Shown: piece after piece, positions 29,591 through 31,408 of the stretch | Layout: each line of letters starts with the position of its first letter | Numbering within the stretch: the first letter of the stretch is position 1 | NCBI GenBank assembly: GCA_903884115.1 | Contig: CAISDH010000055.1 | Span: 1 to 44,546 of the forward strand | From: an uncultured Microcaldota archaeon | Lineage (GTDB): Archaea; Micrarchaeota; Micrarchaeia; Micrarchaeales; Micrarchaeaceae | Direction of reading: 5' to 3' | Length of the DNA stretch: 44,546 bases | Translations under genes and position numbers: made by a program | The notes under the pieces: generated by a model | The model's database searches: none | What the model was told of the DNA's origin: nothing | The model's input: only the letters and a program-made list of their open reading frames with translations

Positions 29591-29663
29591 GCCTCGGTAG
29601 CTCAGCAGGTAGAGTGTCTGGCTGTTAACCAGAATGTCGCAGGTTCGAGTCCTGCCCGAGGCG
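29591..29663 (+). tRNA. tRNA-Asn (anticodon GTT)
   Basis: A complete 73-base cloverleaf. The acceptor stem GCCTCGG pairs with CCGAGGC and the discriminator is G. The D stem GCTC/GAGT, the anticodon stem TCTGG/CCAGA around loop CTGTTAA (anticodon GTT), the five-base variable loop and the T arm GCAGG-TTCGAGT-CCTGC are all regular. CCA is not encoded. A T run (29670-29675) downstream is a probable terminator. A TATA-like CTTATAAG inside the end of gatB could give a separate promoter. Confidence 0.97.
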
Positions 29664-29690
29664 CCTTATGTTTTTTCTGCAAACACAAGA

Positions 29691-29722: not shown

Positions 29723-29812
29723 GCCTCGGTAGTGTAGTGGTCCAGCATTCGACCCTGTCAACATGTACGTGGCAGGACGGTTGCGACTTGGGTTCGAATC
29801 CCAACCGAGGCG
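29723..29812 (+). tRNA. tRNA-Asp (anticodon GTC) with a 17-base intron
   Basis: Acceptor GCCTCGG/CCGAGGC, T arm TTGGG-TTCGAAT-CCCAA and discriminator G are intact. The anticodon loop is CTGTCA before and C after an insertion at the canonical 37/38 position. After removing 29761-29777 the anticodon stem CGACC/GGTTG (one G-T pair) closes a normal seven-base loop CTGTCAC. The mature length is 73 bases. CCA is not encoded. Its acceptor stem is identical to that of the neighbouring tRNA-Asn. Confidence 0.93.
29761..29777 (+). other. tRNA-Asp intron with bulge-helix-bulge fold
   Basis: Pairing c55-g75, t56-a74, g57-c73 and t58-g72 (last two digits of 297xx) gives the four-base-pair central helix. 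It is flanked by two three-base bulges, C-A|A (29759-29761) and G-A|C (29776-29778), cut after the second base in each. The anticodon stem forms the outer helix and CAT/GTG (29762-29764 with 29769-29771) a short inner helix with a GTAC loop. This matches the substrate of the archaeal splicing endonuclease. Confidence 0.85.
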
Positions 29813-29900
29813 TTTCATGCTAGACTTTCAGCTCTTATTATCTTTGCAGAAGCACAAACTCCCGCAAAAACAAACATATAAGTATCACTTAAATCAGACG

Positions 29901-30308
29901 GTGTTGTGTGATAGTGTGTCGAATAGGACAGAAGAGCTTCCAAAGCAGATTAGCACGCAATGGCTTACAACAAACGGCAATGATTACTGCATTATGAAAT
30001 TCAACGTAGTGCTGACCTTCTCACAAACAAAAGCCCTGGCCGAAAGCGGTGGGATGTGCATGCTGGCCGCTGGAGACGCAGCGACAATAGGATACTGTAG
30101 AGAGTCGCGTCGTGTGATTGCGGTGGCATCGAACGGAGGCCATGCATACATAGATACGCCGGATGAGCACACCATAGTTTATTATAAAGAAGACGATTGG
30201 ATGGCAGCATCCCAGCGCAGTCCTTCCGTTTCTGTGGCGATTTTTAAGTGCACCAACCATGATGCAAAGCAAGGAGACGCCAAATCACTTGTTAGAGAAG
30301 AAACTTAA
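29901..30308 (+). CDS. Hypothetical protein, orphan
   Basis: A protein of about 135 residues with no family I recognise. The frame is open back into tRNA-Asp, so the true start is later. ACATATAAGTA (29873-29883) is a TATA candidate placing a leaderless start at the GTG at 29901, while ATG 29994 (MKFNVVLTFSQ) is a shorter choice. The C-terminal 100 residues alternate hydrophobic strands and turns (MCMLAAGDAATIGYC, RVIAVASNGGHAYIDT, HTIVYYKEDDW), suggesting a small mostly-beta soluble domain. It is the first gene of an island of unknown genes after the tRNAs. Confidence 0.6.
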   Translation: MLCDSVSNRTEELPKQISTQWLTTNGNDYCIMKFNVVLTFSQTKALAESGGMCMLAAGDAATIGYCRESRRVIAVASNGGHAYIDTPDEHTIVYYKEDDWMAASQRSPSVSVAIFKCTNHDAKQGDAKSLVREET

Positions 30309-30332
30309 ATACAAAAATAGAATTCAGAAACT

Positions 30333-30345
30333 CATATAATTATAG
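30333..30345 (+). promoter_or_regulatory. TATA box before the first small orphan gene
   Basis: CATATAATTATAG is centred about 34 bases before ATG 30373, leaving a leader of about nine bases that would contain the GTGAT core. The same geometry recurs at the next small gene (30649-30657 and ATG 30689). Confidence 0.5.
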
Positions 30346-30372
30346 ACTAAATCATATCTTATGCGTGATGCA

Positions 30373-30537
30373 ATGAATAACATGAACAATAAACAGGGAG
30401 AGCACAGGGCCCCAGACGCAATGCCGGCATGCAGGCAAGAAACTAGCAAGACGCAGAACAGTACAGAATCAAAGGTGCTGCTTCGGCAGAGCAGAGTCGA
30501 CGACCAGTTTTTCCTGCAAGACCTAGATCACGAATAA
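30373..30537 (+). CDS. Small orphan protein (54 aa)
   Basis: A short hydrophilic protein beginning MNNMNNKQGEH and ending DQFFLQDLDHE, rich in Asn, Gln and charged residues, with a single Cys. No family is recognised and it is probably disordered. Support for a real gene is the TATA element upstream and GTGAT plus a three-base spacer before ATG 30373, the same register as other genes here. An in-frame ATG at 30361 would add four residues but lacks this signal. Confidence 0.5.
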   Translation: MNNMNNKQGEHRAPDAMPACRQETSKTQNSTESKVLLRQSRVDDQFFLQDLDHE

Positions 30538-30586
30538 ACGGCCATTAAATTCAACAGCAGCGCTTCCTACCATAAAGCATTGAACT

Positions 30587-30608
30587 CCTCTTTACAACCT
30601 CTTTACAA
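30587..30608 (+). repeat. Perfect 11-base tandem duplication
   Basis: CCTCTTTACAA occurs twice head to tail (30587-30597 and 30598-30608). It lies about 45-65 bases upstream of the TATA box of the 30689 gene. One helical turn of spacing would place both copies on the same DNA face, as for an activator or repressor pair. Confidence 0.6.
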
Positions 30609-30648
30609 AATGACAAACTTTCACAAACAAAATAACGTAAAGCGGAGC

Positions 30649-30657
30649 ATATAAATA
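30649..30657 (+). promoter_or_regulatory. TATA box of the second small orphan gene
   Basis: ATATAAATA centred 36 bases before ATG 30689 predicts transcription starting about nine bases before the ATG, just before or within the GTGAT core at 30681-30685. Confidence 0.55.
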
Positions 30658-30688
30658 TTTCCTAAATACCAGGCTATGCTGTGATAAA

Positions 30689-30868
30689 ATGCCATCAAAG
30701 AATCAGGAGAAGCGAACTGCAGAGAAGGAAAAGGCCACTGCTCCTGTGCACAAAACCGTCCTGAACCTGGATGTCATGAAAGAAATGGCCCAGAAGCAAC
30801 TGAAGCTTAGGCGCGATATAACCGGCACCCTGGACAGCAAACGCGGAGATGATATCGAACTGCCTTGA
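30689..30868 (+). CDS. Small orphan protein (59 aa)
   Basis: A highly charged protein beginning MPSKNQEKRTAEKEKA and continuing with a likely amphipathic helix (LDVMKEMAQKQLKLRRDIT). It is rich in Lys and Glu, with no Cys, signal or membrane segment. No family is recognised. It has a TATA box, GTGATAAAATG as initiation signal, and is followed after 24 bases by the next gene with the same signal, so the two are probably co-transcribed. Its first residues resemble those of the small protein at 15150. Confidence 0.55.
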   Translation: MPSKNQEKRTAEKEKATAPVHKTVLNLDVMKEMAQKQLKLRRDITGTLDSKRGDDIELP

Positions 30869-30892
30869 CTGTAATGTATAAAATGTGATAAA

Positions 30893-31408
30893 ATGACAAG
30901 CAATGCGTCAAGGGTAAGGGAATTTAGTTTAAACCAACTTGGAGTTTCTGCCCATATAGTGTATTTTGATTTCAAGGAGGTGAAGGAGGGCTTTGCTTTC
31001 CAGGAAGGTATGGGCTACATAAACAAGAGAGGGTACGTTGCACTGATTACGGAAGACAAACGTGAAGATATAATCACTTTTGGCAAGCTGCTGCCCCAGA
31101 TCTTTCCAGAAGGCCATCTAAAAATGGGTAATGCGCTTAAAGTAGGTACGCAGGACCTCATAATAACGAAGATATTCCCTGCCACCAGCGTGCATGATGA
31201 TATTGTAAGGCAGTTTGACAAGAAGATGCGCAAAGCGTGGCAGGAAGTTGACCAAAGCTACCAAGATAAGTACGAAGGTTGGCATGACTGGGCAGACGAG
31301 CAGATGGAAATAATAGGGAGTGTGCCCCTGCGTACGGACGAAAAACCAACAATGATGAACTTATTGGAACTGCCGAGAAAACAAAAGCCACCAGAAGATA
31401 ATAACTAA
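30893..31408 (+). CDS. Hypothetical protein, orphan (171 aa)
   Basis: A soluble protein I do not recognise. The N-terminal 85 residues look alpha/beta (SAHIVYFDFKEVKEGFAFQEG, RGYVALITEDKREDIITFG read as strands and helices). A charged helical segment rich in Trp and Asp/Glu follows (RQFDKKMRKAWQEVDQS and YEGWHDWADEQMEIIG), then a Pro/Lys-rich tail. No catalytic motif, signal peptide or membrane helix is visible. The start is firmly set by GTGATAAAATG. It follows the 59-residue gene closely, forming a likely two-gene unit. Confidence 0.7.
   Translation: MTSNASRVREFSLNQLGVSAHIVYFDFKEVKEGFAFQEGMGYINKRGYVALITEDKREDIITFGKLLPQIFPEGHLKMGNALKVGTQDLIITKIFPATSVHDDIVRQFDKKMRKAWQEVDQSYQDKYEGWHDWADEQMEIIGSVPLRTDEKPTMMNLLELPRKQKPPEDNN

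Follow-up and report, generated by a model that had tools for sequence, protein, structure and literature searches.

Introduction

Among known systems, the one nearest to a single regulatory sequence that marks unrelated, fast-evolving genes is found in SIRV2 and related viruses, whose conserved early-gene sequence led to new anti-defence genes by promoter alone (PMC11065993). In Pyrococcus furiosus, the activator site of TFB-RF1 lies just upstream of the BRE/TATA and serves to recruit TFB (PMC5937170). The diversity-generating retroelements (DGRs) of DPANN archaea have target, TR and RT adjoining, with adenine-specific changes in VR and a C-type-lectin-like target that lacks a membrane segment (PMC8144416, PMC6349945), and DGR targets that have no membrane segment have been described in archaea (PMC8144416).

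The 34-bp element described here resembles the SIRV2 sequence, which lies around the TATA/BRE, in that a single conserved sequence tags many unrelated, small, fast-evolving genes. Unlike SIRV2, where the genomes are those of Sulfolobales viruses, here the element is dispersed on a cellular DPANN chromosome; it is a different sequence, 34 bp long and upstream of the TATA box, and its genes include TFE and a DGR target. With the TFB-RF1 site it shares a conserved distance just 5' of the BRE/TATA, but that site is a 13-nt palindrome serving two operons, whereas the present element is non-palindromic and stands at about 40 promoters. The DGR encountered here agrees with those of other DPANN archaea in the features listed above, though in the fold of its target by a weak structural resemblance only, and differs from them in that its target is one of about 40 genes defined by a common promoter. 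In full-text literature searches we came across no report of an element of this kind from Micrarchaeota. Much of a DPANN genome consists of orphan genes, and to our knowledge nobody can say which of them matter.

Results

The window, that is, the whole stretch of 44,546 nt (44.5 kb, with about 45 genes, most of them conserved), corresponds to contig C55 of a 57-contig, 1.02-Mb archaeal genome that is incomplete (92%); its GatB shares 69% identity with the GatB of a Candidatus Micrarchaeaceae archaeon, and the genomes searched include none of the same genus. The gene order is gatB, tRNA-Asn (29591-29665, by tRNA search), tRNA-Asp(GTC) (29723..29812, + strand, with a 17-nt anticodon-loop intron, by aragorn -i), four short ORFs without family, VIT1 (from 31534, PF01988) and UPF0147, and the G+C content of the island is 44% as compared to 50% for the window. 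The tRNA-Asp gene escapes a tRNA search that is run without the intron option. The preliminary description had pointed to the tRNA 3' end as an insertion site while noting that no integrase or repeated tRNA end was visible. The latter holds, as the window contains no second tRNA-Asp 3' end and the island ORFs contain no integrase by Pfam, NCBIfam or PHROGs; with both att duplication and integrase not found, the idea of a tRNA-integrated island finds no support. Comparison with relatives likewise lends insertion no support: the gatB-tRNA-Asn arrangement is kept in at least ten named relatives, with tRNA-Asp directly adjoining in one, and the tRNA pair reads as the mere end point of a conserved gatB-tRNA block.

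All four ORFs lie on the + strand: gene 1 (29916..30308, 130 aa, GTG start, GTGAT at 29908-29912), gene 2 (30373..30537, 54 aa, or 58 aa from 30361, GTGAT at 30365-30369), gene 3 (30689..30868, 59 aa, polar and Lys/Glu-rich, GTGAT at 30681..30685) and gene 4 (30893..31408, 171 aa, with its own GTGAT at 30885-30889). The GTGAT motif noted earlier as a start signal represents a Shine-Dalgarno (SD) site, which lies 3 nt ahead of all four starts, and the arrangement seen at gene 3, in which the ATG follows 3 nt on, recurs at many element copies; clear TATA boxes, which had also been noted earlier, precede genes 1 and 3 only. In a codon-usage model trained on housekeeping genes of the window the annotated frame was the best of six for 4/4 island ORFs (z 2.4-4.4, as compared to 10.3 for VIT1). 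The ORFs thus read as coding, in line with the earlier impression of expressed orphans, with weaker support than housekeeping genes receive. As an upstream extension of ORF 1 by 33 codons (to 29817) scores as non-coding (z -0.9), the island boundary placed at 29813 was about 100 nt too early.

That the four proteins between tRNA-Asp and VIT1 fall into no family was borne out: none has a match in Pfam or NCBIfam or a convincing one in PHROGs. Homologues of the 171-aa protein are absent from 59 related genomes, the 84,980-species GTDB set and IMG/VR, and a PDB sequence search gave no match; homologues of the 130-aa protein are absent from the 163 other genomes of the order. The AF2 model of the 171-aa protein alone has a pLDDT of 49, which renders a fold search meaningless.

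When island DNA was compared with its own genome, the only matches besides itself were stretches of about 65-95 bp, all to the promoter of gene 3. Their common part is a non-palindromic 34-bp element with the consensus TTTACAAAATCACAAACTTCCGCAAACAAACTGC, located about 14 nt 5' of the TATA box and holding three phased CAAA blocks (phased A-tracts). The copy of gene 3, TTTACAAAATGACAAACTTTCACAAACAAAATAA (30602..30635, + strand), is followed by the TATA box ATATAAATAT (30649..30658, + strand), which was located by sequence and by the invariant positions of alignment A1, and the region 30602-30665 scores 61.5 bits with profile R1, which was built from aligned copies out of the own genome. Gene 1 carries a partial copy (29854..29891, + strand; R1 positions 27-64, 18.9 bits, E 8e-5 in the window) that encloses its TATA box (29876-29885, + strand), and the gene is best seen as a regulon member with a degenerate promoter. 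Gene 2 has no significant element, R1 reaching just 2.8 bits at 30301-30344; it is the weakest of the four and its regulon membership is uncertain. Gene 3 is a regulon member and, with a gap of 24 nt between them, is probably co-transcribed with gene 4 as an operon of the regulon. Among the roles suggested earlier for these two genes, a small regulated module comes closest, as the pair is operon-like; its promoter, however, is not local but one of many copies across the genome.

Across the 1.02-Mb genome R1 matches 49 sites, 39 of them at E<1e-3 and 30 at E<1e-5, whereas a profile of the reversed sequence gave no match, indicating that the 34-bp sequence is specific beyond mere A-richness. As the copies were collected by similarity, the information content of the element is somewhat inflated. 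Mean pairwise identity among 32 copies stays at background (0.26) up to the edge of the element and is about 0.8 inside; this sharp fall indicates that the copies are not relics of larger duplications. The spacing between element and TATA box is 14 nt in 24/36 copies and 16 nt in six of the 36, and a start codon follows the motif after 15-37 nt in 36 of the 46 copies with an ORF; SD and start typically come 20-30 nt further on. A strict combination of SD and start was found at 15/30 strong sites as compared to 1.4% of random positions (p ~1e-20). We use regulon here operationally, for promoters that, like these, carry the same sequence beyond chance in a fixed orientation and at a fixed distance to TATA box and start, with conservation ahead of orthologous genes, here TFE; a regulon in the full sense would also have a common binding factor and joint expression.

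Only 3/27 ORFs behind strong sites pass the Pfam cut-off, versus 7/10 size-matched genes, all taken from the window (Fisher p 0.001); the three are a TPR protein, a protein with a duplicated MarR-like wHTH (C34:6547) and a NUDIX protein. A membrane-like stretch occurs in 2/46 regulon ORFs, and the proteins are accordingly predicted to be soluble. By BLAST they are mutually unrelated, with the exception of the TPR proteins and of two pairs, C31:24832/C36:20038 and C57:33654/C6:41328; the members of the former are large proteins with a common, helical-looking region of ~259 aa at 32% identity. Weaker sites front TFE, two TPR proteins, a second NUDIX protein, an epimerase, a methyltransferase and a secreted-looking Ig-like protein, so that the set is not purely orphan. 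Several sites lie within same-strand orphan arrays on contigs C37, C44 and part of C57; a viral hallmark was sought among the proteins of the C37 and C44 arrays and none was found.

One R1 site (C57:33654-33711) precedes the target gene (C57:32981-33613) of a diversity-generating retroelement (C57:31493-33711). The VR (C57:33195-33296) is matched by a TR (C57:32642-32743), a 102-bp repeat downstream of the target gene that is followed by an RT (C57:31493-32614) recognised by RVT_1 (E 1e-18 at C57:31734-32177) and the motifs IGNLTSQ, which fits the DGR-type pattern IGxxxSQ, and YVDD; as the reading frame of this RT is broken into two, its intactness and activity are uncertain. TR and VR differ at 16 positions, 15 of which are at template A (p 1.5e-9), and in relatives the corresponding counts are 14/14, 17/17 and 17/22, with 14/34 in a more diverged fourth pair. 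The AF2 model of the target protein (pLDDT 83) finds nearly only C-type lectins among its top PDB matches, the best at an E of only 0.02, which weakly suggests a C-type-lectin-like fold. Its family is present in 45/164 genomes of the order, with at most 11 matches each. In genome G003, where 17/17 TR-VR differences fall at template A, another DGR target likewise has a copy of the element upstream (16.3 bits with R2, a second profile used for relatives). Homologues in family f2 are mostly without the element, and the link between element and protein family is therefore not universal. Several of them (f2 members L247-L252) have other long, mutually similar upstream sequences in common, e.g. CTTTCGCAAgaCCAAAGACAAACtATTTATATcTGGAAAAAG, which suggests that the sister family has, in parallel, a common promoter of its own.

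R2 matches 40 of the 163 other genomes of the order, mostly at full length and more weakly than the own copies, whereas the reversed control gave partial matches in 3/164 genomes of the order; outside the order but within the phylum, R2 matched 2/137 genomes with chance-level scores. The copies of relatives show a similar geometry, and none of ten proteins downstream of them passes the Pfam cut-off. TFE and the family of the DGR target are the only families common to the own set and those of relatives, the orphans fronted by the element in relatives being otherwise non-homologous to the own set. In a TFE-anchored scan the element was found ahead of TFE in the own genome (E 6e-8), G007 (7e-11) and G027 (1e-4), the own and G007 sites having belonged to the training set; it also precedes TFE in G049. 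Weaker, rightly placed versions occur in another six or so of 30 genomes, and about 21/30 TFE genes of relatives have no recognisable element. Together, the order-level copies and the TFE sites indicate that the element is old and fronts different orphans in different genera. Micrarchaeota TFE (L067:872-1684 and relatives) has a long Lys/Ala-rich N-terminal tail ahead of the winged helix.

Discussion

Based on these data we consider it likely that the element is a dedicated, activator-type promoter of a genome-wide regulon of about 40 promoters, which serve mostly fast-evolving orphan genes with a probable role in biotic interaction. A sequence-specific DNA-binding protein would occupy the element, adjacent to the TBP/TFB site, and, as an activator, would recruit or position the basal machinery. 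Through such a joint activator unrelated orphan genes would be expressed together, each promoter normally giving rise to an mRNA in which an orphan ORF follows a short leader and a GTGAT ribosome-binding site. PF00382 (TFB) was found in a single ORF of the own genome, which makes an alternative-TFB regulon unlikely.

It is plausible, though somewhat unlikely, that the element instead represents the strongest general promoter class of the lineage, UP-like and perhaps curved, without dedicated regulation, the orphans simply requiring high constitutive expression. The phased A-tracts would fit such a class, as would the use of the element by TFE, a general factor. However, among the ~45 genes of the window only the two orphan-island promoters stand above chance for R1, and the reversed model, empty in the own genome, shows the element to be specific, both of which speak against a general promoter class.

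A fixed position near the TATA box would also fit a repressor or silencer site that keeps genes which are fast-evolving, costly or foreign silent as long as they are not needed. In SIRV2, a wHTH repressor is believed to bind the shared early-gene sequence (PMC11065993), and the duplicated MarR-like wHTH protein (C34:6547) is itself in the regulon. Yet the position of the element is 5' of the TATA box, not across the start site, and we regard repression as an unlikely explanation.

Alternatively, the copies could owe their likeness to ancestry and not to binding, either as a recently spread mobile promoter cassette or as parts of an integrated virus or plasmid. One pair is indeed similar through the start codon (95 bp), and C37 and C44 are same-strand orphan arrays; nevertheless the sharp boundary with random flanks, the fixed spacing and the conservation at the level of the order, also upstream of TFE, make this very unlikely. 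Viral contigs searched with exact patterns contained the element in none, and the array proteins were without viral hallmark; on these two counts an early-gene promoter of a virus or provirus was rejected.

Finally, the preliminary description had likened genes 3 and 4 to a toxin-antitoxin module, and although the pair is tight and its first protein small, this reading is without positive evidence and highly improbable, as the pair matches no family (Pfam, NCBIfam, PHROGs), gene 4 has no homologues in the genome sets searched on which linkage could be judged, and the promoter recurs ahead of no fewer than 38 further genes, most of them unrelated, whereas toxin-antitoxin operons are usually autoregulated through their own operator.

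Returning to the activator-type regulon, the gene set is most simply explained as rapidly evolving and meant for dealing with other organisms, be it a host cell, rivals or viruses, a role suggested by the orphan character of the genes, the arrays, the helical-repeat proteins and the one DGR. More speculatively, Micrarchaeota may run a promoter-defined programme of lineage-specific interaction proteins, comprising effector-like orphans and a self-diversifying, lectin-like binder, in which one element, shared with TFE, would have been acquired repeatedly by new orphans; we put this forward with reserve. The element serves as a tag that exposes a hidden set of genes, about 40 in the own genome and different ones in relatives, and yields a shortlist of genes that are candidates for co-regulation and through which these tiny, probably host-dependent archaea may conduct their dealings with other cells.
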